Below, piece by piece: positions 25,600 through 45,458 of a stretch of 64,000 bases of DNA (positions are counted from its first letter, which is position 1; each line of letters starts with the position of its first letter). Source of the stretch: Pisaster brevispinus (taxonomy: Eukaryota > Echinodermata > Asteroidea > Forcipulatida > Asteriidae); the NCBI GenBank assembly GCA_023634235.1, contig JAMKCF010000013.1, positions 10,718,296-10,782,295 on the forward strand, read 5' to 3'. The translations under genes and the position numbers were made by a program. The notes beneath the pieces were generated by a model. That model did no database searches. It saw nothing but the letters and a program-made list of their open reading frames with translations, and was not told where the DNA came from.

Positions 25600-26785
25600 A
25601 AGTTCGTGCGTCGGGGTAATAGTCTGGTGGCATAATGCACTGGACAATCATAAGGAAGCGATCCTTGTGCTGTTAGATTTTCAGCTGCATTTGACACTAC
25701 TGACCATGAGCATCTCCTTCAACGTTTATCTTCTCGCTATGGAATTACAGGAACTGCCCTTAACTGGTTCTCTTCTTATCTTAACAACAGAACCCACCAT
25801 GTTCTCATCAATAATGCTATGTCCGATCTCTTGTGTGGTGTTCCTCAAGGTTCTGTAGCGGGGCCTCTTGGATTTATATTGTTCAGTGCACCCTTACAAT
25901 ACCTCATTGCTGCCCATGGTATTTCTAGTGTTGCTTATGCTGACGATACCCAATTTTTATGTTACATTTGACCCGGCTGATCGGGCTTCTGCCATTGCTA
26001 AAGTTAAATTATGCATTCAAGATGTCAAATATTGGGCTTTGTCCAACAAACTCGCTCTGAATGACTCCAAAACTGAGATCTTATTTTTAAGATCTCGTTT
26101 CACAAAAACGGTTTCTCCGCCAAACTTACATATTGCCCAGTCTGTTATTAAACCATCTGAATTTGCCCGCAACCTCGGTGTAATTATGGATTCTTCATTT
26201 TGCATAAGTAGACATGTTGATAATGTTTGCAAAGCAGCTCTCATAGCTATCAGAAAAATAGCACAGATTCGCCGCTACCTGGATGAAGCTACTACTCTTC
26301 GTCTTGTTCACGCTTTCGTCACAACTAGACTTGATTCCGGCAATTCTCTTCTGTATGGACTCCCTGATAAAGATCTTGCTAAAATTCAACGTGTATAAAA
26401 CATTGCCGCTCGCCTCGTTTCTTGCTTGCCTCGTTCTCACCATATTACACCAGTACTAATGAAATTGCATTGGCTCCCAGTTAAGTTTCGTACAATTTAT
26501 AAAATTGATTTAAAATTAACTTTCAAAGCTCAAACATGTCAAACTCCTGCTTATTTATCTGAATTTGTTCACCATTATTCCCCTACTCGGACTTTACGTT
26601 CATCTCAACAGTCATTGCTTTCATCTACAAATGCTTCTTCCATTTTGTATGGCCACAGATCATTTTCTTACGCCGCAGCATTTCTTTGGAATAGTCTTCC
26701 TGTGCATATTCGCCAGGCTAAATCTTTACACTGTTTTAAGTCTCTGTTAAAAACACATTTGTTTGAAGCTGCTTATTTGTAATCT
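25600..26785 (+). pseudogene. CR1/L2/Rex-like LINE, 5'-truncated reverse transcriptase
   Basis: The fragment reads LLDFSAAFDT, YGITGTALNWFSSYLNNRTH, GVPQGSVAGPLGFILFSAPL, SVAYADDTQF (catalytic ADD), LALNDSKTEILFL, ARNLGVIMDSSF, TTRLDSGNSLLYGLP, then after one stop HHITPVLMKLHWLPVKFRT, LRSSQQSLL, YGHRSFSYAAAFLWNSLPV and FKSLLKTHLFEAAYL, which is the complete C-terminus of this group. Only three or four breaks (two frame changes and the stop at 26396-26398) make it one of the better-preserved LINEs here. Truncation at the 5' side is normal for LINE insertion. Confidence 0.85.
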
Positions 26786-27389
26786 GCTTACATGTATTTG
26801 TAAGTGTTTCTTTATTATTACTATTAATGGCCCATTATGGAGACATTTCGCAGTAATAAAACAGCCTTTTGGAGGACATTTTTATTACGGAGACATATAA
26901 CTGTCTCCTTTATTCTTTGACCGCTCGTAACGGGTTTAGTATGCATTTGGCATGCTGGATCAAGCCGGATTCATTGACTCGAAGACCGTCACCAATGAAT
27001 GGACCCGTCTACATTGGTATGGGGGGTTGTTGAAGCTTAGAAAAACACGCTTAAAATAGGGAAGGTTATATGTCGCATGGTGTGAAACGAAGTAATTAGG
27101 AGACTTTACGTTTTTTGGATAAAAGTCACACTATTCGGAATTATTATTTTGTAAAATTCTTTCTCAGTTTTTTGCAATGTTAAACCAGATAGTTTTTATT
27201 TTCAAACATTCTTTAAAAGTGAACTTATTTATGATGGTCCCCTTTTTGACTATTGGTATCGTCCATGGCTAGACTACTGGAATATTCATAACGTTTTGTC
27301 TGGTTTCTGTACTCCTAATACCGTAATACAAACAATGTATCATTAAAACCGTTTGTCCCCCTTGGCCTTGTATTTGGCGCGCAATGTGA

Positions 27390-27397
27390 TGACGTCA
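27390..27397. promoter_or_regulatory. CRE-like site TGACGTCA upstream of the SET-recombinase gene
   Basis: The perfect palindrome TGACGTCA, the consensus for CREB/ATF factors, lies about 470 bp upstream of the start codon in a locally CpG-rich stretch (CGCACGTCGGGCGG, GGCGCCGGCGGCC). This is a plausible promoter region; transcription start is not shown. Confidence 0.35.
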
Positions 27398-27492
27398 AGA
27401 AACTTTCTTGATGGTCTTTGTGCGTATTTTTACGCACGTCGGGCGGTGTGTGGCGTCTCTTTTCTCCCTGGCGCCGGCGGCCATGATGCAGC

Positions 27493-27702
27493 ATGGAAAA
27501 CCAAATTTTTTATTGCGTAAACAGTGAAAAGATCGATGTCATACAAGAGTATACACGAAGATTAATAATTGCAGTTTTCCTTTTAATCATTTGGTTGACA
27601 ATTCTTACTTTTTTAAGTATTGCTGCTGTAGTCCTAGGCAGTGTACGCCGTGGTTCTAATTTTACTAGTAATTTCGACCTCGAGTACTCTACATCGTTTT
27701 AA
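27493..27702 (+). CDS. Short ORF with one membrane segment in the leader region
   Basis: The 69-codon ORF begins MENQIFYC and contains a strongly hydrophobic stretch (LIIAVFLLIIWLTILTFLSI), then a basic GSVRRGS and a stop. It lies 160 nt upstream of the start codon of the SET-recombinase gene, possibly in its 5' leader, so it could be an upstream ORF or a chance reading frame. No family is recognised. Confidence 0.25.
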   Translation: MENQIFYCVNSEKIDVIQEYTRRLIIAVFLLIIWLTILTFLSIAAVVLGSVRRGSNFTSNFDLEYSTSF

Positions 27703-27863
27703 CGTTGTCGTGACACTAACATGTAGTGTACGTAGCCGAGCTTATACAAACGCTGCAAGAATATTTTCTGGAATCTAAGTTCAGTACACATTTGGTGTCT
27801 GTGTTTTTAAACTACTCCTACCTACTCCTCCTACTCATCATAGCGGTCTCGACTGACTTCATT

Positions 27864-30800
27864 ATGTTGGTAAGTTAAACATTTTTTCCACCATTAATAC
27901 AAAACAACTTCACTTGGGCTTATTAAGTTATAATATATATATTATTTGCAACTTTACCTGAAAGGCTTAGCATGTTGTGTTGCGATAATCATAACCCTCC
28001 CCTCCCCCAATTCTCTTGACGCGACGGTCGCACATTTTTATTCAGACCGGTCGGTACGACCGTCGATACATCGTAAGAATACAGTCATGACAGTGTTACT
28101 ATTTTATGCTTTCGAATCGATTAACACAAAACCTGTAGAGGCCTACCTTGTTGTGGGCATCCGTAGCAAAATCTCATTTAATTTTTCTAGAATAGGACAA
28201 ACAAATTGTGACACAAAACTACATCACTGGATAGTCTGATAGTTACTGACGGTGACACTGACAGTCTGTCCTGTAGCCTTCAGTTGTGTAGTAATTTTTT
28301 ATTGAATTGCTCTGAACTTTAAAAAAGTAAATAGTCAATATCCAGTGATAAGTATAAACTAGCCCACAGGTTGCCATAGTATGGTTGCATACAATCATGA
28401 CAATGACTCAAACAAGACGGTATGATACTCCTGTGTGTTTAGCATAAGCTCAGCAAGTAAGCAATTAAACTCTTGATCTAGTACAGTGACAAGTACATGT
28501 TAATCTCTTTGAAAGTTGAGATGAAATTTCCTCAAAAGAGTCACTCAAAGCAAAGCAAACTCGTTGTTTTTCTTGTATGCGTCTGCTGGATGGGGAAGGT
28601 GCACGATAAATTATGCTGTTCTAGCTCTTTCATAACTTAACTGTGGAAAGTGAATAATATTTTCTTTTGTACCAAGTGGTGTTGGTAGGGGAGGGGGGAG
28701 GGGGGGGGGCATGGCGTGAAATCTGAAATTTGTATTGAACATTTCCAGAACAAATGTTTCATTTTTCTGCTTTAATGTGATAATTTCATTTTGTAAAAAT
28801 ATTTTTCATTTACATGCAGACAATATTTTTTGGGGGGCCAGATTATCTTATAAAAAATGGCATAACAAGAGCGCTGAAAGAAGGCTTAAAAAATGCAAGT
28901 GTGAACTTGGCCAGAACTTGCAGAAGTGCCCCCTAATAAAAATGGTGCACCCCGTGTGCCCCTTAAACTTTTACCTTAATTTTCAATGCTGTTTGTATAC
29001 CTAAACATGCTTATTCACAGTTAATATTTAAAACTTGCAGTTGAGTTTTCTTTGTCATACACAGTCTACGATAGCATGGTTACATTAACCACCCAGGTGC
29101 CATGTGTCATTTGAGGAGATTTGTGTCATATTAAGTGTTTAAACTTTCAACTTTCAGTCTGTGAGACAAACACGATCATCTGCAAATGTCTCTAAGGACA
29201 AGCTGATAATAGAAGCATTAAGCAAAGAGGACCCGGCAAAGACTTTCGTCGTGAAAAACTCTCCAGGCAAAGGTATACATGAGGATGAGCCTATATTTGT
29301 TTCAAAAAACTATTTGAACTATATCTTTGGCAATAATAATTATTTTCACAAGCATTTGATGTGGTAGTCTGAAGGTTCGATCATCTGAAAGTGGGGTTGA
29401 GAGGCAAGGGTGATAGTCAAACAGTTGTAGTGGAAAGCATGAAGTCTTGATAGTTTTAAATGTGTGTACCATCTTGCCATGGACTGAAACAACGATGTGT
29501 TTACATCTCAAGTTTGCTATGGTAAAGATGCGCACAGATACAGTCAATTCTACGTGGCCTTTAAAGCTTTATTGCTGGCTATTGCTGGTAAATTACATGT
29601 ACATGTTAAATAACTCCTCCCTTTAGGACCATTGTGTTATGTTCACATTGCCAGTAATATAACGGCAATGGCATGATGGGACTTAAAACCTTTTATTTTA
29701 CAGTGAAACGTGTCTTTTTAGTGTTAGTTTCCTAACCTCATGAAGCATATTGTGTCAGAGATAGAATTGTTTTCAAAAATTGCTGCCGTGGCTTTTTGGG
29801 AGACATTGCAAATTGCAGTGATGATTATTGAAGAAAAAATGTGCATTATTGGGAGACATTGCAAATTGCTATGTGTTTTGATTATTGAAGAAAAAGTGTA
29901 CGTTTGGGAGACATTGCAAATTGCTATGTGTTATGATTATTGAAGGAAAAATGTACGTTTGGGAGACATTGGAAATTGCTGTGTGTTATGATTATTGAAG
30001 AAAAGGTGTACATTTGGGAGACATTGCAAATTGCTATGTGTTTTGATTATTGAAGAAAAAGTGTACATTTGGGAGACATTGCAAATTGCTATGTGTTATG
30101 ATTATTGAAGAAAAAATGTACGTTTGGGAGACATTGCAAATTGCTATGTGTTATGATTATTGAAGAACAAATGTACATTTGGGAGACATTGCAAAATCCT
30201 GTGTGTTATGATTATTGAAGAAAAAGTGTACATTTGGGAGACATTGCAAATTGCTATGTGTTTTGATTATTGAAGAAAAAATTTACGTTTGGGAGACATT
30301 GCAAATTGTTATGTGTTTTGATTATTGAAGAAAAAATGTACATTTGGGAGACATTATGTTATGATTATTGAAGAAAAAAATGTACCTTTGGGAGACATTG
30401 CAAACTGCACTGTGTTTTGATTATTGAAGGACAAATGTATTTTTGGGAGACATTGCAAACTGCACTGTGTTTTGATTATTGAAGATTAAAAATACAGTTT
30501 GGGAGATAAAGCTACTAACTCTGTAAGATTTTTTGAGGGATTCCCAGATAATATATTAATCTACCGACATCTCAACATGTCTGAAAATCACCCCTTATTG
30601 TCAATTTTATACAAATATTGACATAATGTGGCCTGTTTAAACTTGGCTAAAACTCTTAATCAGCGCATACCAAACTTTCCTTTTGGCTTATTTATATTAA
30701 AAATTACCTTTGCCTGCATACACATAGCATATAAAACAAATTTTCTTTTTGGCTGATTGAAAACTATGTACCCACATTTATACTTCTGCTACGATTCTAG

Positions 30801-33800
30801 AGAGTAGGGCCTTACTTAATGTCTATTCAGTTTGGCAACAGACAGATCACATTACGATGGGTCACTCCCGGTTTACTGTATAAACACAACATTAATTTTG
30901 TATGTGATGCCATTATTATCATTAACAATAAATTGACACAGACTTTTTATTGCATTGTTTCATACACACTTGAAGGTTTAGGAGTCTTTGCCACCAAAGC
31001 AATTTCACCTGGACAACCTTTGGTTGTCTATGGGGGGAAACTTATAACAAAGGAGGAGGGGGAAAGACTGGAGAACGAGAAAGAGAGTGTCTTTCGCTAC
31101 TTCTTTGTGTTCAAAGGAGAGAAACTATGGTATGTGTTGTTTTTGAAGTAGATGGATACCTGTAGTTTCCAACAATTTCTAAGAAAAACAGTTAATTTTT
31201 GATTAATATCTACTTTTCCCAATTTTCCTATATTTTGTCTTTTCTTCGTGACCTACTGTACAAGATATTTATGGGCAAATAGTGCCTTTAAAATATATTC
31301 CAGATTGATAGACATTCAAGTTAAGTCATTTAAGTACTTTTAAAGGTGGCACATGCCCTGTTAAAAAAAGTAGATCTTGCTGTGCGTGACAGACACACTT
31401 GGTACTCATAATAACTGTAATGCATGTTTAACAGTGTTTAACCAAACTGGTAGGGTTTTAAATGTTTTCACAAAATAATGACTTATTAATTCGTGTTTCC
31501 ATGTGCTCTCTCATTATAACAGTTGTGACGCAACAGAACCATCAAATTTGCACCTTGGACGACTAGTAAATCACGGCAGAGGCAAACACCAAAATGCTAG
31601 GATGAAAGTGTTAGATATTAATGGAGCACCAATCCTATGTCTCTTCTCTCTAAAAGGTTTAAAAAAAGACGAAGAAGTCTTGTACGATTATGGGATAAAA
31701 AATCTTCCTTGGCTTCATAACGCAGGTAAATTATGGGTATATTTTGAAATGTATTTTTGTCTTTGAGAAAGGAACATCAATAACTCATCACATCCCATTC
31801 CTTGGTGGACATTCAAACTTTTAAAACTACCAAAACAATTTGGACTAGGTGGCCCACTTCAGGGTAAACCTGCCAAATGAACTTTTCCATAGTTATATTT
31901 TCAGAGATTGATTTTTTTCACTAAATGAGTCGATACTTTAGACTGCAAGGGGCCTTAGTTAGCATAAATAGTTTTAGTTTCTTAAGTTATACATATGTAA
32001 TAACTAAGGGTCACTGGCTGTTGTACTGTAGCTGATCTGTTTGGTCTGTGTTTTTAATTTTCCAAAGAGAAATAAAGCAAAATTTCAGTGGAGAGACAGA
32101 AATGTATTAAAAGGACTAATTAACCTGATTTTATATTATGAAAGCAAATTATCCGAATCTGTTTGTATTTTTTCACTATTAGGCAGAAACTCCCAAGAAA
32201 GTTGTGCTTCTCTAAAGCCAGAAAGTGTAAGTGCTTGTTTAAATATGTTGAAATAACTTTAATCCTCAGTGTTTACATTTTATAACATCACTAAATATAC
32301 TTATTTGGTTTAGTTCAAATCAAAGAGCTCTGTGCTATTACAATAAATACAAAATGTTATTCTGAATGGTTTATGATGTACACTAAAATCTTACATAAGT
32401 TTTGTTTTTTTAACCCTTGGCAGTCAGACAAGCCAATACCACAAGAACATCATCTTCATCAGCCCGATGATAATCTTGTTGAGGTTGAGGTTGAACAAGT
32501 ACATGTACCAGCTGACCCGAGGCAGCTTTCCAGTGTTGTTCAACAGTCAGGTTTGTGTGTGTGTTGTTGGTTTTGTTTTTGTTTCGTTTGTTGGGATGTT
32601 TTTTGTTTGTTTGTTTGTTGGGGTTGTTGGGGTGTTTGTTTTTTTGTTTGTTTGTTTGTTTGTTGTTGTTGTTACTGCTGTTGTTGTTGGGGGTGGTGGT
32701 GTTGATGTTGTCGTCGTCGCCGTCTTCGTCGTCGTCGTCGTTGGTGTTGGGTGGTGTTTTTTTTTTTTTTTTTTTTTTTTTTTGGGGGGGGAGGGGGGGT
32801 TGGTTTTGTATTAGTGTAAGGTGTGTGTAATTATACCATAGCTCTGATTATACTATATGATGTAGCACCCCACATATAAAGAGGAAAGCAGTAGACAACT
32901 TCTTCCCTGCAGACCATGGATGGCACTGCAGAGAATGTTTCTGAAGAATTCAGCTATGACCAGCAATGACCTATGGACCATGGGCCTTCTAGGGGACTGT
33001 GCTGCTAATCTCTAGAGTCTAATTTTCTGGGATGGTTTGGCAACGGTTACAAAGGCACATGTACTGCAACAAACCCTTACTTTAGAAATTTCAGGCTTCT
33101 AAGGAACTGCCACTGCTGCACAACACTAATAGCCCCTCATCAGCTAGTCTACTCAGCTTTATAAAACTATGAAAGGCTACACACCATGGGCCAAGCTCGT
33201 TCAGTACACAGTATGTACAACCACATCATACATTCGAATGAATGTACACAGGCGAACCGATCTCTGATTTCTCGTACACACCATGCACAACACTTATTTC
33301 AAAGCCTTTCCAACGATGGACATGTTGATAAGCGCAGCCCGTGACATGCTTTTGGAGATCACTACATTAATTGTGGTCTACTACACTTTGCGAGCGTTGC
33401 TAGCCCTCTGTCCCATCACAGTATACTCGATCATGTGCATAGACACATTCGCTTAATTGCTCAATACTGTTGGATATAACAGGTATGATAAGTAAATTGT
33501 TTGAATTTTTATTCAACAGGCAGCAGCATCAACAGGTTCCAAGAAAGTTGTCCATTCCTGAAGCCTGAAAATGTGAGTGTTGAGATAGCTTAAATATACG
33601 ACAACGTAGCCTATGCGTGAATACATGTAGACCCACATGTATATCACTTGACATTATAAAGTGCACAAGCACTGCCTTTTGCAACAAGTTAATGCATTGA
33701 ATGGTACATGTACATCAATAGAAACCATAGATACTTAATATAAAAATTGTTTTTGATGCCTAAAACACTTAATTAGCAATGAGACTATTTGAAATTGCAA

Positions 33801-36800
33801 TAGTTCAAGAGGCTTTTTCTGAAACTGCTGATGTGTGCAAATGATTTGCACACATTGCAACCTTTGTCATAGGTGGAATTGGAGGGTGACACACTTGCAA
33901 TAAAATCTGCATCTTGACCTCTGTTCCAACAACTTTGTTGTCTTTTCATTTCTAATTTCAAGTGCAGACTTAGTTCATTTACACAAGACAATAAAGGCAA
34001 TTATCATAATCGGCATGCCCTTAATATGTATCTACCTATAGTCGGGTGCTCGATTAACCCCTCAAAAAGTCCTGTTGCAAACATGTTCAGATTTTCGTTG
34101 AAAAAGATTGATTTAGTTGGTCGTAGAATTAAGCTTCTTGTGTTTGTGTTTTCTGGGCAATTATTCAAATTGATATATATTAAAATCTTACATACATTTT
34201 GCTTTTTAACCCTTGGCAGTCAGTCACTGAAGAGCCAGTGCTACCAGATCATCATCATCAACCTGATAACCTTTCTCAGGTGGGCAACAGTGCTGATGAG
34301 CATTCTGATGACTTGAGCAGGCTGCTCTCCTGGGTTCAACTTAATACAGGTTGGCCTTTATTCTTACAAGTACAAGTTTTAGTTTTTTGTATTAAACAAG
34401 GAAGATAGTGGCAGCACTTTAAGAGTAACTAATACATAACAAACTGCATGAGCTTTTGTATCAACAACTACTTCATCATATTCATTGCATCTGATAAAGT
34501 TAAATGTTGTTACGAAAGCTCATGCAGTTTTTGTATGTGACGTCAGTTACTACACCTTACTTGTTTTATCTATCAGACTAACACGGCTATCTCTATCATC
34601 ATATACTTTTATGAACATGCCTTTTTTATAAGTGTCAATGTTTAGTTTTAGCACTGATTTTGTGCTTTTCTTGATAAAATAGAAGTGCGCATTTAATTTG
34701 TCCTTCGTTGATCTAGGGTAGGAAAATACATAAATACACCAGGACCTTGAAAAATTTTATACAACACATAAAGTGTATTTTGATTATACCAATGCATTCG
34801 CCCCTTTTGAATGCTGCCAACGATACAGGATGAGGGGTGGGTTATGACAGCTTTTTTCATATTCATTGCACATATCACTATCAATTCCCCTCTGTACAAT
34901 CTTGAAAGTGAAACTTTATACAGCTCTTACTTAATTGTTTGCACTCGTAGTAAAATTTGTTTGCCCATGACCATTAACATCAAGGTCATCATCTCGGTTG
35001 CTCAAAACCTACCCATGTACATGTTGTAAATGCATACTTGTTTTTTGTTGTTGTTGAACAGAAAACAGCTCCCAAGAAAATACAAGTACAAGTAGTCTTC
35101 CTTCCTGTTCCATGAAGCCGGAAAATGTGAGCATTACTTTGAATTGTTAGAGCATGTATATTATACTACTGCAATTAGCTTCTTTTTTTATTATTCAATG
35201 ATTCAGTTCCCCCACCCCAATCCATTTTTATTTTTTATTTTTTTTTTTTTGGGGGGGGGGTATAATTTCTGTAAACAAAGTATTGTTTTAATTGCAAATT
35301 CAAAAGTACGAACAAATTTTGCCTCAAAAGTCTTTTTATAAAAAAGTATGAGCATTAGTAACACTGATAATCTTGTGTTGTAAAACATTACCAGTTTTGT
35401 GTGTGGGCAGAATTTTTGGGAAGATACACAAAGTAAAAAAACAAGAGTGCAAACATAAAAAGGAAGCAAAACACATTGGTATTGGTATAAAATAAAGCTT
35501 TTCCTTTTTTGTGTGCATTTAGTGAGCAATTGTTCTGAATGATGTCCACTACAATCTTACATAAGTTTTGTTTTTTCAACCCTTGGCAGTCAGACAAGCC
35601 AATACCACAAGAACATCGTCTTCATCAGCCCGATGACAATCTTGTTGAGGTTGAAGTTGAACAAGTACATGTACCAGCTGACTCGAGGCAGCCTTCCAGT
35701 GTTCAACAGTCAGGTTTGTTTGTTTTTTTTTGTTTGTTTGCTTTGCTTTTTTCCCTTTAGTTTGTTTTTTAAACAATACTCATTGTTATTTTGTTTCACC
35801 CCTCCCTTAATGACAACAAATTTCCAACAGTCTTCTTGCTAAGACTTTGATTTGGATTCAATACATTTGCATTATACAGGTGAGGAGTTGCTGTGACATA
35901 ATTTGTGTTATGTTAAGACATCAGAAACATGCCAAAATATACAAAAAATTAGTGCTGTGTCCGATGATTAGAATATTTTCATGAGTGGAAAAAATGTTTT
36001 TTCCCAATCAAGGAGAGTTTAATTGACAATTCAATTTTTTCAACAAATGAAAATACTCTTAACCATTGCACAAATGCAATCCATCCAATATTGTGCTTAC
36101 ACAGCATTCAAATTAAGCAGATATTTGTCATTTAATGGGAGGATAAAACTATCATAAAAAAACCCCAAAACATCCAAGATTGTATTACATCCACTTTGAG
36201 GATAGTGTACGTGTTGTGGTCAAGTGTAAATAGTCAACAAGCATAGCATGCAGTAGTAAAATAACCCAGGATGGAATGAAAATTCTCAGTGAATAGTCCT
36301 AAAATGCATGCTTATACAGGCCATGCAATGGTTTGAGAAATGCCACGTGACCTTACAGTCCTGTTAAAGTACAAAGAGTTCTACTTACATGCTGTAGTTG
36401 TTGTATAACACATCTTGGCATCGAAGCAACCGTCCTCATATATTGTTCGTGCATGTGACTTACAAGTACAAATATGCAATTTACAGCTACTAAAGTGCTC
36501 TATATTGTTTGATTAAAGAGTGAATTGTTTGCATGTGTTTCCCAACAGGCAGTAGCTCACGAGAAATCTACTTAAAAGGTCTTCATTTTCTGAACCCTGG
36601 AAATGTGAGTATTTATTATCTTAAATTGATTTGAATAAACTCTATACATCACAGAAAATTGACTAAAAAAATGCTAAGAAACTCTGTATAATACTTTGTG
36701 GCTACATTATAGCTAAGAAGGAACAAGAAGCAACATACAGAGTAGCCTTGTCCAAGGTTGAAAAACCATGCTTCGACCCCACGGTATACTGTATATCAAG

Positions 36801-39800
36801 TACTGCAGTACTGTGCCAGTATTGTTATGCTACCTGGTGAATTCAAAACGGGGTGTTTGCGTAAAGAGCCTTGGACAAGGCTACAGACGGAGAGGAAAAA
36901 TAGATCTGGGGATAACCCCAGACATTGAGTTTCACCCTCCTTCAAATGTATCAAGTGCAGTTTCGCCACCACTCACCGAATTGGACTTATTGCCCACATG
37001 CCACGATGCCAGAAGTCCCGCTCTAACTAGAGTGACTGCATATACATTATAATTTATCAAAACATTTTAATGTTTCGATAAATTATAATGTATATTTTGA
37101 CTCTACAATTATAAACATTTAAAAATGTTTATAATTGTAGAGTCAAAATAGACACATACGAAAGTATGCATCCATGCATGACTTTGAAACAGCTAGTGAA
37201 AATCCGGATATTGTTAGATGGTGTTGTCATGTTTGCTAGTCTGTCATTTAAAATGATGTGTATTAAAATCTCTTTTTTTTCAACCTTACAGCCAGTCACT
37301 TTGAAAGAGGCAAATGATCATCAGGGCCTGCTTTGTGTACCATCTACAACTACTAGTACCACAGCTTCAGACATAAGTGAATCTGATTCTGATGATTCAA
37401 CCTATGTGTGCTCTTCTGATGACAGTGATGATTCTGTTACTGAGTCGGTGAGCTTCCCATTAGTCCATGGGACACAACCTGTTAAGTCAATGATCTTACC
37501 TCCAGTAGCTGAAGCCATTACTGAGGCTAAATCTACATGTGCATCTAAATATGTGAAGCCCAAGCGAATGTGTCCCTTCTGCAGCAAAAGCATCCAAGAA
37601 AAACTAGCAAGGCACATATCAACGGTCCACAAAAGTATCAAATCAGTTTCTGACGCAATGAAGCTTCCAAAACTAGAAAGAGATGCTGTATTTGATGGTT
37701 TTAAGAAAAGGGGAATCTTCATCACAAACAAGGAGCAACTGAAAAAATCCACACCAGTCTACCAAAGAGAGAGGAGAAATCTGAGCAGTGATGACAGGCT
37801 TGTCATCTGTGGCCTCTGTAGTGGATTTTATTCAAAGAGGTGTTTTAAAAAACATAAAAACAGATGTCAAGGTGACTCTCTTTCTGCGGCATGCTCTATA
37901 CCTCTTTCGATGTTGATAACTGGTGATGATATCTCTGATGTGTTTAAAAGAGAAATTTTGTGTAAGTTTCGCAACACAGATGTAGGGGAAGTTTGCAGAA
38001 CAGACCCAGTTATCCTTAACATTGGGCAGCAGCTTTGGAGAAAAGGGAAGAACAAAAAAGGTGACCGAAAAGAAAAAATCTGTGATGGTAGACATGAGAA
38101 GGCTCGCCTCATTATATGTTGTCTACAAAGATCAAGAAATAGAGTCAATTGATGCAGGGAAACAGACAGTTGGAGACATGTTCAAAAGAGAGAACTTTAA
38201 AGCATTGAGTAATGCAATCGATGTGTACACAACCCATGCCGAGTCCACTGGAATTAAAAGTGGCCTCAAGTGTGCCCTCTATTACTTGATAAAGAAGGCA
38301 TGCAAGATCATCAAATCTACACATCTGATGGAGGGTCGGGATGATGCTGCCGCAGAAATAGACAAGTTCATTCCTGTATTTGAGCTCAACCATGAGTTTA
38401 TTTTTGGGGATGCGACTTATGAAAAAAACAACAGACGCCAAAAGATGCTGCGAAAACCAACAGAGCTACCTTTAGAGGAGAACGTCAAGAAGCTCAGAAT
38501 TTACACAATCAACAAGGTGGAACAGATGTTGGCTGACGACTTCCTTGTCTGGGATTCTCATAACTTTAATGCACTTCGAGACCTCACTGTTTCTAGGCTT
38601 ACGATGTTCAATGCCCGCAGAGGCGGGGAACCATCCCGCTTAAAAATAGCAGAATGGCAGGAAGCAGAAGACCGTCAGTGGATTGATCAGCAGAAAGCAG
38701 ACAATCTGCATGACCCACTTGACAAGTATCTCATTTTCAATCTCAGAGTAACGTACCAGACTGGAAAGGGTAACAATCACTTGGTGCCTGTCCTTTTCCC
38801 ATCCGACACAGTAGAAGCCATGAAGAAATTGACAGACACTGAAATCAGATCAACTGCAGGTGTCAGAGAGGACAATTTGTTTGTGTTTGCTTGTGTCCAG
38901 GGATCATCTACACATGTAACAGGGTGGCTTGCTCTGAATAACATATGCAGTGAAGCAGGAATCGAGTCCAAAACAAATCTCACAGCTACAAAAAACAGAC
39001 ACCGCATTAGCACACTCTATGCGGCCCTTGAGCTTCCAGAGCAGGAAAGGGATCTGTTTTTTAAACACATGGGGCATTCTGGCAACATAAACCAAAACAT
39101 CTACCAAGTGCCTCCAGCTATAGCGGAAGTCATAAAAGTTGGGAAGCAACTTTTGCAGATTGATAAAGGTAAATATTCATTGCCTCACACTTTTAATGGT
39201 AAGGGAAGTTATTGAAACAACTACGGAAAACTTTGAATAAAGACATTTGAAAAACTTCTGCAACTGACTTGTCTCATGTCGACAACAGAATCAAAATGAA
39301 AAGTGTAATCCTTGGTTAACATGATGTTGACGAATGATTGCCCTAGTCAGGCAAATAAGTACAGTTTTGTGATTTTCAATTTGTGAGCATTTGGTTATTG
39401 TTTTGTTAAGTTGATATTGTTTGAAATAAAGTTGTTGTATATTTTCCCAACAGGTAGCAGAATCAGGTCCCAAGAAAGTCATCCTTCCCTGAAGCCCGAA
39501 AATGTGAGTGTAATTTAAATCTATAGAGTGGTACATGTTTACATTACAGAAACTGATTTATTTGGGAGAAAAATCTGTGCAGCCACATGGCTAGATATCT
39601 TTAAAAGATGATTGACATTTAAAAAGCTGATTTTTCTGGGTTCGATCCGAAATTGTATTAATTTTTTCAATGAGAGACACATACTAAGAGCACCATGCAA
39701 GATGGCATAAAAAAATCAGCTTTTGCTCAAAAAAGCCATTAGAAAAATATGAACAATTTAGTAACATTGTCTGGAAAGAGTTTGTGTGTGTCTGATCATA

Positions 39801-42800
39801 CATGTACAGTACATGAATCTTGGGTATTCACTTAAGTATTCACTCATAAAAGTGTCCATTTTTAGATGGATTATGTTTAAATTTGTCAGTGACACCACAC
39901 AGTAATATGCATGCAAATTATTTGTAAAATTTAGCAATAAAATAACTTACATGACAGCTATAATTGAACTTCTTTTCATTACAAAACGTCTCTCAAAACT
40001 GCTGTGCTTTGAGATGCTTTTTCTCATTGAGAGACTCGATACTTTGAATTTGATATGTTGTTTTTGACACTGCTATGAACTAAATTAATCAGTGATAATG
40101 GAGAAAAGATAAGTTTTAGTTTGTGACAAACCTGAACCGATTAAAGTAAAACACTTTTGTATTTCATGACTGCCAATTTTGTTGAAATTGGCAGAAAAAA
40201 TACATGTGTTTTTTTATTGTGTTTTTTATTTGTGCATTTGAGCAGAACTTTCACGAAACATTACATGGAGCGTGAGTGCTACTTAATGAAAATGGGAAAT
40301 TTCACTTTTGGTCACCGCAAAGGTTACTATGAATAATTAGTGTAATTAATAAATAAAGTAAAACTCTTTAAATTTTTAACTGCTAAAACTGTAGGCATTG
40401 ATGAAGAAGTTTTGGGGAGATACACAAAGTAAGGACAGTGCAAAAACGAATAAGAAAAACACAAGGGATCGGTAAAAAAATACAGCTGTATAAACAAAAG
40501 AGGGACAATAGGTTGCAGGTGTTGTATACAGAATGATGTATCTTAAAATGTAAAATGTTTTTACCCTTGGCAGTCAGTCGTTGCATTGAAAGAGCCAATC
40601 TTATCACAAGATTTTCATCCTGATGATCTTTCTATGATGAACAACAACGGTGATGAACCAGCTGACGCAAAGGAAAGGCAGCTTCCTCATGTTCAACAAT
40701 CAGGTTTGTTTCTTGGGAGTTTGTTTTTCTTCAATTCCCCAAAACTTGAGAACGGTCCCTGTTTCATCAGTACATCGATTACACTCGATGATATTTGTGT
40801 TTCTTTCTTTTTCAAAGTAAGGCTTTTTTATTGTAAACTGAAAGTTTGCTTGGGTTTTTTACTTCCTTTTTTCTATGGTGCCAACAGATAAATCCTTGTT
40901 TATTTCATTATGTTTGGAAGATAAGAACCCTGGTTGCTGGTTTTTTGTTTGTTTATAATAATCAATTGTCAATGAGTCAAGCGTTTCATTATCATGGCAC
41001 TTGTCCATGGAGCCTGGAAAAAGCTAAGCTAAGGATTGTCTAAGTGATTGCACCTTTTTTTAGGGCTACTAAGATAATCAGAGACAATTAAATTATCATT
41101 CCTTCAAAGTAATATTGGGTGCCCATGTCACCATGTTATATGGAAGATAGGATCATGTAATGTGTGTAACCGGTTCAAGGGTGCAGCAAGATTAAACCAA
41201 AATGATTCAACAACGAATATGAGTTCGATGAACAACAATCTGATCTTAATATTTTTCACCAAAACCAATTCTCCAAAAAGGCTAGTAATGTCAAAGGACA
41301 TTTTAAGATGAAAATCAAGAAGAAATAGTAATACAATTCCAACTTAAACAAAAATATAAAAAGTTCACATAGGAAAGAATTAATGCCATGAAAGTAATAA
41401 AAGGTAGAAATAAACTTAGCAGCTTGAAGAACTCTTGGTTGAAAAAACGATGACAAACCACTGAACGTTACACGACACTACTCACAATCCACGCGAATAC
41501 AAACAAGTTTAAATGAAGAAAAGGATGAAACAATATCCAGAAACATCAGGAAAAGTTCAAAAGTTCAGATTCTAGAAGACACATTATCTACATTTCTGTG
41601 GTCACATTCTTTGTGAAACTTTTGTAAATAAAAAAAAATAAAAATCAAGTCATGGTATAGACCATGTCCCCATGTTTACAAAAGTGTGACTTTGTACACT
41701 TCAGGGCCAGTGGCGTAACTAGACATTTTCATTTGGGGGGGGGGGGGCAAGTGGGGGCAAAGATTAAATTTGGGGGTGCCAAAGGAGTGCAAGGCTATCA
41801 TTAAATATGTTAACTGATTTATATATTATAAGAATATACTTTTCTGTGATTTCATATGGGGGGGCAAGAGGGGGGGGGCAAGGGTTCTGTGCGGGGGGGC
41901 GCAGCCCCCCCCCCCCCCCCCCCACTGCCCCCCCCCCCCTCTGGTGACGCCACTGTTCAGGGCGTATCTGACAGATAAGATCCTACACTGGTCATATGGG
42001 AAATTTCACATGCTGTATCATAGTTACCACATAAATTAAAGAGTAATAAAACAGTTGTACAAGTTTTGAGATGTGCCCCCTTTCTTTATGTAAAAAATTG
42101 ACATAAATTGTATGGTGCAATTTCCATAAAATGTAAGATTTGTATGTTTTTCTGCCATTGAGTTGTGTACAAAATGTACCTGCAGTAAGTCCAGGCTCTG
42201 TGGCTCTTTGGTAAACATGTGATGTCAAACGTTACATGGTATATAGGAAATAATGAATGCTTAAAACAATAATGCATGTTACCACTTTCTTGCAGTAAGG
42301 AAAAGGTACCTTGTCTGGCCAAAATCGCATGAAAAAAAGGTAACGACATTCTTCATGGAGATTATCAAAGGAGAAAGTCAGCAGTCTCTACCTAGTAAGT
42401 ATAAGTATAATTCCCCTTAAGCCCTGCATGTTCATCTAGATGTATGTACTCAAACTTTGACTCACTATAAAAGGTTCACCGATTTATACTCGCCAATTTG
42501 TAGATTACTTAAGAATAATCCTGTCGCCTACTGACAAATAAAATGAAGGTTTCACTGCTTCTTTTGTGGTTCTGATGAAAAGTGAGTTTATTTATGTCTC
42601 TCTTTTCATGTCACAGCTCACATGAGATAGTTTAACAATTTTAGGAACCAAAATCTATGTATTTCTAGCAGCGGATAAAATGTAACAATATCATCCAGAT
42701 AAGCTTACATTTAAAAAGATAAAAGTCTATTAGATTAACAGTTTGAGATGTGTTTACAAGAGTCTCTACTTGAAAACTGTCTAATGAGCGAAGGGTTAAC

Positions 42801-42982
42801 GTGGAATAAATATAGTCTTTATTGTGTTTTTTGTCACAGGAAGAAATCAAATTGAATCCTTCTTAAAAGAAGAACCAGAAATTCCTTACAGTTGGACAAC
42901 AATAAGGACCAAAGTAATGAACGAGAAGGCAAAGTGGCAAAGGATTATGAAAAAAAGGATGGAAGAAATGGGGGAAGACTAG
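27864..42982 (+). CDS. SET-domain / zinc-finger / tyrosine-recombinase fusion gene
   Basis: Sixteen exons join with consistent phases: 27864-27869, 29158-29272, 30976-31129, 31523-31725, 32183-32226, 32424-32550, 33520-33572, 34220-34349, 35062-35126, 35590-35713, 36549-36604, 37292-39168, 39454-39503, 40574-40703, 42296-42394, 42840-42982. They total 3376 nt, which becomes divisible by three (1124 residues) if one extra base in an A6 run at 38073-38078 is removed. Order: short N-terminus (1-38), SET domain (about 39-158), repeated linker modules (160-359), acidic Ser-rich part, C2H2-type finger (C453, C456, H467, H472), second finger from C532, tyrosine-recombinase domain (about 640-985), and a C-terminal region like the one that ends the same recombinase family. 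A nuclear chromatin- or DNA-modifying role is inferred. It may be a domesticated or still mobile recombinase. Transcript support is needed to prove that one mRNA spans it. Confidence 0.8.
29158..31725 (+). CDS. SET domain exons (KMT5A-like)
   Basis: ATG TTG at 27864-27869 splices in phase 0 to exon 29158-29272 (SVRQTRSSANVSKDK...NSPGKG), then in phase to 30976-31129 (LGVFATKAISPGQPLVVYGG, RYFFVFKGEKL) and 31523-31725 (DATEPSNLHLGRLVNHGRGK, MKVLDINGAPILCLF, EVLYDYGIKNLPW). The motifs GKGLGVFA, LVNHG and LYDYG correspond to the cofactor- and lysine-channel motifs of SET lysine methyltransferases, closest by eye to KMT5A (H4K20 mono-methylase). The usual NHS is NHG here. No stop or frameshift interrupts the domain, so activity is plausible; the substrate is unknown. 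Confidence 0.85.
29790..30515. repeat. Minisatellite, about 13 copies of a ~55-bp unit
   Basis: Units of the form GGGAGACATTGCAAATTGCT, followed by ATGTGTTATGATTATTGAAG and an A-rich tail, repeat with minor variation inside intron 2 of the SET-recombinase gene. A related array lies just past the gene's stop codon (43020-43860). No conserved reading frame is kept across units. Confidence 0.85.
32183..36604 (+). CDS. Tandem A/B exon modules encoding an acidic linker
   Basis: Short A exons (32183-32226, 33520-33572, 35062-35126, 36549-36604; a fifth at 39454-39503) encode peptides like GSSINRFQESCPFLKPEN. B exons (32424-32550, 34220-34349, 35590-35713; another at 40574-40703) encode peptides like DNLVEVEVEQVHVPADPRQ. 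Every A exon runs phase 1 to 0 and every B exon 0 to 1, so each A+B pair is a symmetric 1-1 unit that can be duplicated or skipped without a frameshift. B1 and B3 are almost identical, including their upstream intron ends (TTTTAACCCTTGGCAG or TTTCAACCCTTGGCAG), showing recent duplication. The linker has no known fold. Confidence 0.8.
32551..33519. other. Intron with G/T microsatellites and a poly-T/G tract
   Basis: The intron after exon B1 opens with degenerate TTTG/TTGTTG repeats, GTCGTC runs (about 32705-32745), a ~26-base T run (about 32757-32783) and a G run. From 32830 to 33519 nothing else was recognised. Confidence 0.6.
34412..34605. repeat. Dispersed hairpin-forming repeat in intron
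   Basis: ACTGCATGAGCTTTTGTA near 34443 is the inverse of TTACGAAAGCTCATGCAGTT near 34510, and the block ends with CAGACTAACACGGCTATC. Such CGAAAGCTCATGC...CAGACTAACACGGCT repeats are widespread in animal genomes. It lies in the intron after exon B2. Confidence 0.5.
37045..37147. repeat. Two consecutive AT-rich perfect hairpins
   Basis: TATACATTATAATTTATC pairs with GATAAATTATAATGTATA (37045-37095), and immediately after, TTTGACTCTACAATTATAAA pairs with TTTATAATTGTAGAGTCAAA (37096-37147). They stand 145 bp before the recombinase exon. Confidence 0.8.
37292..39168 (+). CDS. Zinc-finger and tyrosine-recombinase exon
   Basis: This single 1877-nt exon starts PVTLKEANDHQG, like the other B exons, then adds an acidic Ser/Asp stretch, a C2H2-type finger CPFCSKSIQEKLARHISTVH, a second finger CGLCSGFYSKRCFKKHKNRC and a tyrosine-recombinase domain. 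Catalytic-looking residues, in protein numbering: Arg801/802 in NARRGGEPSRL, Arg928-His929 in TKNRHRISTLYA, His954 in MGHSG and Tyr963 in NQNIYQ, matching the R..RH..GH..Y order of phage-integrase-fold enzymes such as Cryptons. The first His of the canonical HxxR box is Thr. The frame shifts by one base in the A6 run 38073-38078; both sides of it are otherwise open. Donor is AAAG|GTAAAT. Confidence 0.85.
39454..42982 (+). CDS. 3' exons: fifth A/B module and C-terminal exons
   Basis: Exon 39454-39503 (GSRIRSQESHPSLKPEN) and 40574-40703 (SVVALKEPILSQDFHPDDLS) are the fifth A/B pair. The last two exons, 42296-42394 (RKRYLVWPKSHEKKVTTFFM) and 42840-42982 (NQIESFLKEEPEIPYSWTTI, ending KKRMEEMGED and TAG), give a Lys-rich C-terminus. 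In the related recombinase family a W...V..F...P...W..IK..V.N region ends the protein, and this matches loosely. Introns contain a MITE copy (41655-42245) with a hAT-type MITE inside it. Confidence 0.75.
39504..40573. other. Intron without recognised features
   Basis: This is AT-rich sequence between exons A5 and B5. The 3' end has the same ACCCTTGGCAG acceptor as the other B exons. Nothing else was seen. Confidence 0.5.
41655..42245. mobile_element. Diverged GTATAGACCAT MITE, interrupted by a hAT-type MITE
   Basis: The block starts GGTATAGACCATGT and ends ACATGGTATATAGG, and shares long stretches with the copy at 12199-12507 (CATATGGG.../CATATGAC, GTGCAATTTCCATAAAA, CCAGGCTCTGTGGCTCTTTG). 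The insertion at 41708-41955 explains its greater length. Confidence 0.6.
41708..41955. mobile_element. hAT-type MITE with 8-bp target duplication
   Basis: Ends are CAGTGGCGTAAC and, reversed, CAGTGGCGTCACCAG. TTCAGGGC flanks both sides (41700-41707 and 41956-41963), an 8-bp duplication as made by hAT transposases. The 248-bp body is non-coding, with long G and C runs. Confidence 0.9.
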
Positions 42983-43019
42983 CTTATATAAGACCAGTGT
43001 TACAGGTATTGTTTAGAAA

Positions 43020-43860
43020 TATGCAATGGGGGGAGGGGGGACATTGCCAGTTGCAGTGTGTTATAACTTTTGGGAGGAGAGAGTAAAATTGAAGAAATTG
43101 AAGTGTTAAAACTATCGTAGGGAAAGAGGTACATTTTGGAGACAAAGCCAGTTTCTATATGTTAATTTTGTTTTTGTGAGGAAATGTACTTGTGGGGAAC
43201 ATTGTCAAATTGGAGACTGCCAAATTGCAATTTGCTATGATTTTTTTTAAAAGGTACAATTTGAGACATTGGTAATTTGCAATGTGTTATAATTTTTGTG
43301 GGAAAAAATGGTTTATTAGGGAGACTTTGCCAATTTGCATCAGTTATGATTTGTGTTCATGAAAAAAGGTGCAAATGGAAACTTAGCAATTTGCAATGTG
43401 TTATAATTTTGGTGGGAAAAATTGTTTATTGCCAGTTTGCATCAGTTATGATTTGTGCTCGTGAAAAAAGGTGCAATTGGAGACATTGGCAATTTGCAAT
43501 GTGTTATAATTTTGGTGGGAAAAAATGGTTTATTAGGGAGACTTTGCCAATTTGCAATATGTTATGATTTGTGCTCATGAAAAAAGGTACAATTGGAGAC
43601 ATTGCCAATTTGCAATGTGTTATAATTTTGGTGGGAAAAAATGTTTTTTTTAGGGAGACTTTGCCAATTTGCAATATGTTATGATTTGTGCTCATGAAGA
43701 AAGGTACAATTGGAGACATTGCCAATTTGCAATGTGTTATAATTTTGGTGGGGAAAATGGTTTATTAGGGAGACTTTGCCAATTTGCAATATGTTATGAT
43801 TTGTGGTCATGAAAAAAAGTACAATTGGAGACATTGCCAATTTGCAATGTGTTATAATTC
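43020..43860. repeat. Minisatellite, alternating ~57-bp units
   Basis: Units such as GGAGACATTGCCAATTTGCA followed by ATGTGTTATAATTTTGGTGG alternate with GGAGACTTTGCCAATTTGCA followed by ATATGTTATGATTTGTGCTC, giving a higher-order period near 117 bp. The units resemble those at 29790-30515. The array begins 40 bp after the stop codon of the SET-recombinase gene, so its start may be in the 3' UTR. Confidence 0.85.
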
Positions 43861-44381
43861 ATTTTATCGCATAAACGATAACATACATTATTCGCCGCAG
43901 AAGACCCCCCGCAGTGTTGTTTGTTATGGTTGTTGGTTATGGTTGTTGGGTAATAATTTTGTTAGGCTTGCCTTGGTGATGTTCCTTGTAGTGGTTTGGA
44001 CGTAAGCCATAAAGGTAACCTAACTTTCCCGGGGTAGCAAGGCTGACCTTTATGCAAAGTGTGTGTGGTCAAATGGACCTTTATTTTAGATTGCGTAACA
44101 AAAGCATGGTACTTCTGAGTAGCGGGAAAGCTAATCACTTCGGCTCAGCTTTCACTGAGAGTAACATTTACTTCGACAACTTTAAATTTTCAATCGTAAG
44201 GATTTGTTGAATTGTTCGCAATCATTTGCGGGCCAGTTTCGGTGGAGCGGTATTCCATTGTTGGAGATTTTGGTCTAACACTACAGAGACAGAGGTTTTC
44301 TGCGGCACTTTCGGTCTTATACAAGTTATCTACGGCAGAACCTTGCGAACTTTTTAACTCGCGGGTTTTTCTGGAGGAGGA
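43861..44381. other. Spacer upstream of the gag-like ORF
   Basis: It contains GTTGTTTGTTATGGTTGTTGG repetition and moderately GC-rich leader-like sequence before 44382. It could hold the 5' terminal repeat of a DIRS/Ngaro element, but no repeat partner was found. Confidence 0.35.
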
Positions 44382-45458
44382 ATGCCTCGTCCAGTACGGA
44401 AGAAGACGCGTCCGGGGAGAATGGACTCGCCGATACTGCCAATGCGGGGCCGTGGCCGTGGCCGTGGCTGGGGCCGTGGATCAAAGGGTCGGCCGCGGAT
44501 GAACCAGCAGCCGCCCATAGGCCAGCAGACGTCGGCGGAGGTTCCGGTGGATGAGAGCACCTCCTCGGCCATTGCTGCTGACGACAGCAGCTCAGGACAG
44601 CCATCTGTGGGCATCATTGAGAGGACATCCGCACCGTCGTCAGCGTCTTCAGCCGGACCTTTGCTGGCTGGACCGTTGCCGATAGGAGATCCGTCAGCAG
44701 GAGGACCAACAGTAGCCGGACCGTCAGTAGCGGGACCATCGCCACTCTATCCAGTTGGGCATGCCGGTACGTTCACCGATATTGGGTTTAATAACCAACA
44801 GGGTGCAGGGGTTTTACCTGCCTTATCTGGGGTTGTCGTTCCTCCTTTTTCTAATTTACTAGAGGGGTATAGGAGACCCACCCCTATTCCATCTGTACAA
44901 GATAGTTGTGGGCTAGGGTTCCATGTCACTCAAGCCTTGAAGGAAAAAATTTGGAATTCCCAGTATGTTGACATGGCTTTGTTGTTCCGTGACAACGCAG
45001 TGTTTTCGTTGGCCTCGGCCGACAGTGGCACTGGGTTGTCGATGATGGTGGATGAGCAAGGTCGGGTGGTCTTTCGCCCGGCCTCAGCACCACCGCGGAA
45101 ATTGCAGACCATCGATCATTGGACAAGTGCATTTCATACATTTATGGCTGTTTACTCTGTACGCCATCCCATGCGTTTTGGTGAGTTATTAAAGTATGCG
45201 GAGACCATTCGCCTAGCTGCTGCGCAGTTCCCCGGGTTGGGCTGGCGTAGCTATGATGAGCAATTTCGCTTGCGTCAGGAAGCGCAGCCCTCCCGCTCTT
45301 GGGCAATGCTTGACACCGAGCTTTGGGTAACTGTTGCTGCTGCTACCGCTACTGGTTATATGCCAGTCGCTGCGGCTACTTACACGGGCAAACAATTTTC
45401 CTCGCCCATGTCAAAGGGTGGCACCTTGGCCTGTGATGCGTTTAAAGTGGTGTTATAG
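44382..45458 (+). CDS. DIRS/Ngaro-type retrotransposon gag-like ORF
   Basis: An intact 358-codon ORF begins MPRPVRKKTRPGRMD, followed by an RG/RGG-like basic segment (RGRGRGRGWGRGSKGR), a Pro/Ser/Gly-rich middle (GPLLAGPLPIGDPSAG), and a conserved C-terminal half with IDHWTSAFHTFMAVY, WRSYDEQFRLRQEAQPSRSW and LDTELWVTVA. That last block is the hallmark of the gag-like protein ahead of the recombinase/RT genes in DIRS and Ngaro elements. The usual CCHC-like zinc knuckle after it is missing: the ORF stops after LACDAFKVVL. No reverse transcriptase or recombinase follows, so this is a truncated element. Confidence 0.7.
   Translation: MPRPVRKKTRPGRMDSPILPMRGRGRGRGWGRGSKGRPRMNQQPPIGQQTSAEVPVDESTSSAIAADDSSSGQPSVGIIERTSAPSSASSAGPLLAGPLPIGDPSAGGPTVAGPSVAGPSPLYPVGHAGTFTDIGFNNQQGAGVLPALSGVVVPPFSNLLEGYRRPTPIPSVQDSCGLGFHVTQALKEKIWNSQYVDMALLFRDNAVFSLASADSGTGLSMMVDEQGRVVFRPASAPPRKLQTIDHWTSAFHTFMAVYSVRHPMRFGELLKYAETIRLAAAQFPGLGWRSYDEQFRLRQEAQPSRSWAMLDTELWVTVAAATATGYMPVAAATYTGKQFSSPMSKGGTLACDAFKVVL

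Follow-up and report, generated by a model that had tools for sequence, protein, structure and literature searches.

The subject of this analysis is a 64,000-nucleotide stretch of the genome of the asteroid Pisaster brevispinus (assembly GCA_023634235.1, contig JAMKCF010000013.1, positions 10,718,296 to 10,782,295 of the forward strand; hereafter the window), which contains a gene predicted to combine a KMT5A-like SET domain with a probable tyrosine recombinase (YR) domain, most probably carried by a large DNA transposon. The gene is predicted on the plus strand as a chain of 16 exons spanning positions 27864-42982; all exon borders are of the GT/AG type, and the phases chain throughout, save for one frameshift inside exon 12 that is also present in contig C410. 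Exon 1 (27864-27869) consists of the codons ATG and TTG, and exon 2 (29158-29272) precedes the SET domain; both pass the splice and phase check and recur in other copies of the gene (exon 1 in all four). Exons 3 (30976-31129) and 4 (31523-31725) encode the first and second halves of the SET domain, the latter including the LVNHG, LYDYG and PWL motifs and having splice, Pfam and PDB support. These exons are followed by a series of linker cassettes (exons 5-11, 32183-36604), identified by their phases and duplicates: A5 (32183-32226), B6 (32424-32550), A7 (33520-33572), B8 (34220-34349), A9 (35062-35126), B10 (35590-35713) and A11 (36549-36604). Exon 12 (37292-39168) encodes an acidic stretch, C2H2 and C2HC zinc fingers (recognized by eye) and the YR. 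Downstream, all on the plus strand, lie another A cassette (exon 13, 39454-39503; phase and duplicates), another B cassette (exon 14, 40574-40703; phase and acceptor comparison) and the two halves of a C-terminal module, namely exon 15 (42296-42394), with relatives in the C363 and C8d families, and exon 16 (42840-42982), which ends with a TAG stop and has relatives in the C363, C4 and C8d families.

Cassettes of exons 5-11 and 13-14 alternate between the A type (phase 1-0) and the B type (phase 0-1), and several are clear duplicates of one another that flank exon 12 on either side (33490-33580 and 39424-39511 are 78% identical; 32373-32578 and 35539-35739, 92%). The acceptor and 5' edge of exon 12 itself resemble those of B8 and B14 (scores of 39 and 36, each reached in none of 518 null comparisons); the similarity to B6 and B10 (score 23 for both, reached by 11 and 9 of the 518 nulls, respectively) does not stand out. 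Because the cassettes are duplicated on both flanks of the recombinase exon, the exon chain is more than a chance arrangement.

The SET domain is full-length (PF00856, E-value 9.3e-14, profile positions 1-105 of 105), and its 14 best relatives in the PDB are KMT5A/SETD8 chains (best E-value 9.8e-18), with VEYHGD, RLINHS and LLYDYG of KMT5A aligned to VVYGGK, RLVNHG and VLYDYG of the window protein. In the canonical KMT5A architecture, the SET domain is located at the C-terminus (PMC10368294), whereas here it occupies residues 41-149 of an intact protein of 1,186 amino acids.

The catalytic set of the YRs comprises, in order, R, K, H/K, R, H/W and Y. The boxes ARRGGE, GKGNNHLVP, NRHR, MGHS and IYQ are invariant across five families (the window family and those denoted C4, C6, C8d and C363), and R, K, R, H and the nucleophilic Y are invariant in all eight aligned YRs, down to 23% identity. 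A profile of these eight members (the five families and three members of 23-26% identity) was compared, using hhalign, with bacterial and phage YRs (XerD, XerC, FimB, FimE and lambda Int) and yielded an E-value of 3.2e-4 and a score of 35.9 (the best of 200 shuffles reached 24.4); four of the six catalytic positions (K, R, H and Y) were identical, compared to two at most in the shuffles, the first R falling outside the local alignment. With the profile of the five families, four of the six catalytic positions were again matched, and none of 300 shuffles exceeded two; the single-sequence comparison scored 19.3 versus 11.2-14.8 for six controls. Judging by these motifs and alignments, the exon 12 domain is likely to be a tyrosine recombinase, and a catalytically active one is probable. 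YR proteins of a similar kind abound in fish and corals. A PDB search with the eight-member profile returned one unrelated match (E-value 1.8) and no recombinase, PHROGs gave two weak matches of unknown function (0.051 and 0.1) and NCBIfam none, and no relatives were confirmed in IMG/VR viral contigs or prokaryote contigs. A single-sequence AlphaFold model of the YR part of the window protein had a predicted local distance difference test score of 32.5 and was not used.

The earlier note on this DNA had described sixteen exons in phase, a complete SET domain, the recombinase boxes ARRGGE, NRHR, MGHS and IYQ, and the fusion of the two domains in one gene. The splice borders and phases (apart from the frameshift), the SET match and the invariance of the boxes bear out the first three of these claims, and the one-gene model is backed by the phases, the duplicated cassettes and the intact frames of all four other copies described below.

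Dispersed copies and their ends

The genome (549,739,089 bp in 512 contigs) was searched with 1,041 bp of the recombinase DNA, which occurs at nine places, the window included, at 97-100% identity and at nine more at 66-70%; wide surroundings were examined for five of the eight other near-identical places. Four copies, two on contig C11 at 354k and 377k (C11a and C11b), one on the same contig at 8.78M (C11m) and one on contig C1 at 29.03M (C1m), share window positions 26,812-43,867 and none of the window flanks, the main aligned pieces being 96-99% identical. The plus-strand copy in the window extends from 26821 to about 43867, and its right end, along with a right tail of approximately 1.9 kb, is missing and is known from the other copies. 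Contig C410, in contrast, matches the window through the right flank at 99.3-99.5% identity and is a second haplotype or a duplicate contig of the window locus. C11a measures 22,930 bp between TTA arrays, and C11b follows it directly, through (TTA)25. The copy on C8 has an uninterrupted zinc-finger-YR exon; those at C1:20.29M and on C440 are shortened, with a broken YR, and were excluded from the analysis of the ends. Apart from the fusion gene, C11a appears to carry no convincing gene: among its ten stop-to-stop open reading frames (ORFs) of at least 110 codons, those free of exons, judged by eye only, are antisense, low-complexity, tandem-array or intronic.

The C11a, C11b, C11m and C1m copies, i.e., all those with the full gene examined besides that of the window, contain every one of the 16 exons and an extra in-phase cassette pair, which brings the total to 18 exons, and in each the joined frame encodes 1,186 amino acids without an inner stop, in the order KMT5A-like SET domain, repeat linker, two zinc fingers, YR and C-terminal module. 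These copies differ from the window by 0.66-0.72% outside the exons (tandem arrays and two variable stretches omitted) and by 0.36-0.50% within them. The ten distinct coding changes among the four copies include six synonymous and four non-synonymous ones (the binomial probability of four or fewer, given the site proportions, is 0.0087); the latter, at residues 266, 435, 439 and 448, all fall after the SET domain and before the zinc fingers, with none in the YR or the C-terminal module. Two stretches of the window copy deserve separate mention: the intron that precedes the recombinase exon includes, at 36740-37150, what by eye looks like a short inverted-repeat unit (resembling a miniature inverted-repeat transposable element) and two near-perfect palindromes, and the other copies vary in length there; and a segment of about 1.1 kb (40824-41918) is present in the window and C11b copies and missing from C11a, C11m and C1m, as a result of later insertion or deletion.

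The left end of the element, CTATTAATGGCCCATTATGGAGACAT (26821-26846, plus strand), adjoins a short TTATTATTA run and starts at the identical base in the window, C11a, C11b, C11m and C1m. A search with this end produced 11 matches, of which five are full-length within the window family, two are partial at 97% identity and four, at 72%, belong to a second family. The right end, read inward, is CCGTAAATGGCCCCCTTGGTAGACAT, and it adjoins (TTA)n in C11a and C11b, C11m, C1m and C8. When the two 60-bp ends are aligned locally, the top score is 37, a value reached by one of 5000 random pairs, which indicates imperfect inverted ends. In the second family (C8d/C1, with a YR of 66% amino acid identity), a head-to-tail junction on C1 shows the family's own ends, and two of its four left ends found are 23,185 bp apart in the same orientation; in the third family (C4, YR 67%), both ends lie at TTA arrays, about 19.4 kb apart. 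The motif [AC]GAC occupies positions 21-24 in all six ends of the three families, and the three right ends begin with CCG. Given that the left end of the second family was registered by its CTATTAAT and that of C4 by the motif itself, with three bases remaining to the array in each case, these two ends are not independent tests of the motif position. Head-to-tail pairs are found in two of the three families with ends at (TTA)n microsatellites, and TTA arrays border the C11a, C11m, C1m, C8, C1 and C4 junctions; no TTA/TAA array of seven or more units was detected in 134,051 bp of other sequence from the same genome. Two borders, the left one of C8 and the right one of C11b, are given as N in the assembly. 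Inside the ends lie two subterminal tandem arrays on the plus strand, the left one (29795-30506) with a 55-bp unit containing GGAGACATT and the right one (43212-43867) with a related unit, within which the window copy breaks off; in C11a, one strand has 60 occurrences of GGAGAC[AT] and the other three, mostly in these two arrays.

Several other features of the window resemble, by eye, pieces of mobile elements: reverse-transcriptase-like ORFs at 25654-26782 (similar to long interspersed nuclear elements), which end beside the left end of the element; a 366-codon ORF at 44358-45458, just to the right of the truncated copy, that is similar to a protein of a DIRS-type or similar retroelement; and a minus-strand ORF at 5748-6485 that could be a fragment of a piggyBac-type transposase.

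Pairing of SET and YR across families

In all five families examined (the window family, C4, C6, C8d and C363), the SET domain is encoded on the same strand as the YR and lies 5' of it, in C363 by about 11 kb. The second exon of the C-terminal module was detected in C363, C4 and C8d, and the first in C363 and C8d (the C6 sequence covered stops short of this region). In C4 and C6, the donor of the SET exon can be joined in frame to a giant exon that encodes the linker, the zinc fingers and the YR; because three of the four candidate acceptors tried in C4 and two of the four in C6 are in frame, this joining alone is modest evidence.

Protein searches of the genome produced at least 92 SET and at least 102 YR matches, which correspond to at least 54 SET loci and at least 86 YR loci; these are minimum values in which haplotigs are included, the YR search having scored 106 of 139 candidates. 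Among the matches listed, a YR follows the SET domain on the same strand at a distance of no more than 20 kb (1.5-18.9 kb) in 42 of the 54 SET loci, compared to three with a YR upstream and one with a YR on the opposite strand. One family with equal scores in both searches is represented at eight places (C1:14461028, C8:12650913, C11:8933947, C14:16175564, C80, C133, C159 and C344), in seven of which the YR lies in an open frame of 1113-1115 amino acids; by this measure, the family looks recently active. Diverged YR loci, C10:11901801-11902682 among them, have no SET domain detected within 20 kb upstream and may be SET-less relatives; some contain long open frames (1338 amino acids at C10).

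Between families, the non-synonymous divergence (dN) of the YR is 0.18-0.30, with the synonymous divergence (dS) saturated in all ten pairs, and that of the SET domain is 0.18-0.37, with dS saturated in five of the six pairs and a dN/dS ratio of 0.11 in the sixth. By these estimates, both domains are under purifying selection. The pairwise identities of the two domains do not clearly track each other (C4 and C6 are 0.73 identical in the YR and 0.62 in the SET domain).

A putative transposon with a possible chromatin-modifying recombinase

From its sequence features, the window copy can with considerable confidence be interpreted as a truncated, frameshifted copy of a DNA transposon of about 23 kb, the only evident gene of which is the fusion of SET domain, linker, zinc fingers, YR and C-terminal module. 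This interpretation is based on the dispersal of the whole unit, the inverted end motif, the TTA borders, the head-to-tail pairs, the intact frames and the conserved pairing of SET and YR; the copies also have exact common ends in differing flanks, as expected of a mobile element.

A number of observations weigh against it. Neither an empty site nor an insertion polymorphism was found in the one assembly available; the window copy has no more than the short TTA run at its left border and lacks the right end; and the C11m and C1m copies share a left flank of 6,240 bp that is 100% identical on two chromosome-size contigs, with different right flanks, so that an assembly misjoin is possible and the two were not counted as independent insertions. 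Among the matches listed, 12 of the 54 SET loci and 44 of the 86 YR loci are unlinked within 20 kb (42 of the 86 are linked). The SET domain of the C363 family (C363:21286-21513) is diverged, with about 36% identity and NDG replacing NHG, and its methyltransferase activity is perhaps altered or lost. As for the recombinase, the box-II histidine is a threonine in all eight aligned YRs; the hhalign probability for the eight-member profile is 38.9% (maximum of 2.6% in the shuffles), a modest formal support; and the five-family profile scored 15.6, which equals its own reversed control and falls short of the best shuffle (24.1). The SET and phage-integrase profile matches envisaged in the earlier note fared unequally: the former was obtained, and the latter (PF00589) in only one of the eight members, with an E-value of 0.0015. 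The Pfam and PDB matches of individual members, and those of the five-family profile, included no recombinase.

A different origin of the copies, namely a multi-copy host gene family (expanded KMT5A-like genes whose tail derives from a recombinase) dispersed by segmental duplication without any transposon, would agree with the purifying selection on both domains, the multi-exon structure of the gene and the identical flank of 6.2 kb at two places, and similar genes have been published as a host gene expansion (PMC10368294). It is harder to reconcile with a unit that starts at one base in differing flanks, with inverted end motifs in three families, with the TTA arrays, and with the apparent lack, by eye, of any other convincing gene in C11a, and we consider this explanation improbable. 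Nor does the analysis support, for this locus, the suggestion of the earlier note that a host gene captured a recombinase, because the gene travels whole in a dispersed element with common ends and the SET-YR pairing holds at 42 of the 54 SET loci among the matches listed. The distinct left flanks of the window, C11a and C11m/C1m, the distinct right flanks of C11m and C1m, the separate right border on C8 and the existence of several diverged families with the same layout also make it very hard to believe that the copies reflect faulty assembly or are haplotigs of a single locus, despite the near-identity of C410 to the window, flank included, and the common flank of C11m and C1m.

Two further alternatives accept the element and concern its product. 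The SET domain and the recombinase might be encoded by two adjacent transcription units rather than by one: the frame of exon 12 is open upstream to position 37115 and contains ATGs, from which a separate start is conceivable. However, the linker cassettes are duplicated on either side of the recombinase exon, the phases hold in all four intact copies, and in C4 and C6 a single intron can join SET in frame to the linker-YR exon, so two separate products seem a poor prospect. The YR might also be catalytically dead and do no more than tether the SET domain to DNA, a role of the kind suggested for DUF3504 genes, and the threonine in box II as well as the existence of domesticated YRs of this kind (PMC3212892) are compatible with this possibility. 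It appears unlikely given that R, K, R, H and Y are invariant in all eight YRs, unlike DUF3504 genes, which are described as lacking most of the catalytic tetrad (PMC3212892), and that the copies are recent and dispersed.

If the element is indeed a transposon, its zinc fingers and core-binding region would bind the inverted ends and the subterminal GGAGAC repeats, and the YR would join both ends and excise the element, probably as a circle with a junction of inverted arms around a TTA core, to be reinserted by the YR at TTA repeats; the tandem pairs would fit the insertion of a circle next to an older copy. A precedent for insertion into a simple repeat, with possible concatemers, is provided by nimavirus YRs with a C2H2 domain (PMC10871703). 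The fused SET domain would probably methylate a histone lysine, by kinship H4K20 (monomethylation), on nucleosomes near the element or its target. KMT5A activity can promote replication licensing. H4K20 monomethylation has been tied to replication and accessibility (PMC10368294). Methylation by the fused SET domain would most likely aid the expression, targeting or replication of the element itself, and the idea of a chromatin-marking recombinase, raised in the earlier note, stays alive as a conjecture. A still broader scheme, which we put forward tentatively and to which we give somewhat less than an even chance, is that these elements form a separate superfamily of animal YR-transposons with a chromatin writer in the transposase, widespread from cnidarians to echinoderms, that accounts for the published KMT5A-like expansions, some members of which become active at genome activation. 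Copy-number gain would then be the purpose of the SET domain, with KMT5A-type methylation perhaps licensing local replication or opening TTA-rich target chromatin, such that a recombinase that excises the element could still multiply it and leave the copies in head-to-tail arrays.

Relationships with known systems

No SET-YR element was apparent from the title or the start of the abstract of the literature matches listed, most subscription papers and Repbase reports being beyond this coverage. Among the closest counterparts are the animal Cryptons, DNA transposons that rely on a tyrosine recombinase instead of a DDE transposase (PMC3212892), as the window element probably does. The element in the window differs from these in its size of about 23 kb, the inverted end motifs, the C-terminal module, the zinc fingers and the SET domain, a distinction drawn from the published description (PMC3212892). 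Membership in the Cryptons, considered in the earlier note, is not supported because animal Cryptons are said to lack both terminal repeats and a C-terminal domain (PMC3212892), whereas here there are imperfect inverted ends with a motif placed alike in three families, and the YR is followed by a two-exon module in the window family, C363 and C8d, the second half of which is also seen in C4. The fungal Starships are also large and have a tyrosine recombinase, as the window element probably does, but their published definition calls for a DUF3435 captain that comes first at the 5' edge, together with accessory genes (PMC12506042); DUF3435 is absent from the Pfam matches obtained here, and C11a seems, by eye, to have no other convincing gene. 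Endogenous nimavirus YRs likewise have a C2H2 zinc domain, with five of seven key residues located, and insert into a simple repeat that links the copies (PMC10871703), much as proposed for the window element. They differ, in this comparison by description, in targeting the telomere motif (TAACC)n, in belonging to large viral genomes and in the absence of a SET domain from the relevant passages of that report (PMC10871703).

The primate SETMAR/Metnase protein resembles the fusion in the window in that a SET methyltransferase is joined to a transposon recombinase; it binds transposon ends (PMC6326780), as the window protein may. SETMAR, however, is a single domesticated host gene with a mariner transposase (PMC6326780), and the fusion described here belongs to an element present in many copies and has been retained from family to family; no transposase is among the Pfam matches of the window protein, and its gene is multicopy. 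If the interpretation is correct, a transposon with its own histone methyltransferase-recombinase fusion would stand as the natural, multicopy equivalent of SETMAR and would be a selfish element that writes chromatin marks, and an animal YR that targets a simple repeat might serve as a tool.

KMT5A-like genes number as many as 65 in Hydractinia and 61 in the sea urchin; they are diverged, with the SET domain mostly N-terminal, and the longer ones from the two animals resemble each other at both ends (PMC10368294). Like the gene in the window, most of these have an N-terminal KMT5A-type SET domain, and the longer ones also have C-terminal parts (PMC10368294); they were read as H4K20 methyltransferases, and the words recombinase and integrase appear nowhere in the main text of that report (PMC10368294). 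Many of these expansions, likened here by description only, may represent the same kind of element; if so, their embryonic activation would have to be read differently, as that of mobile elements.

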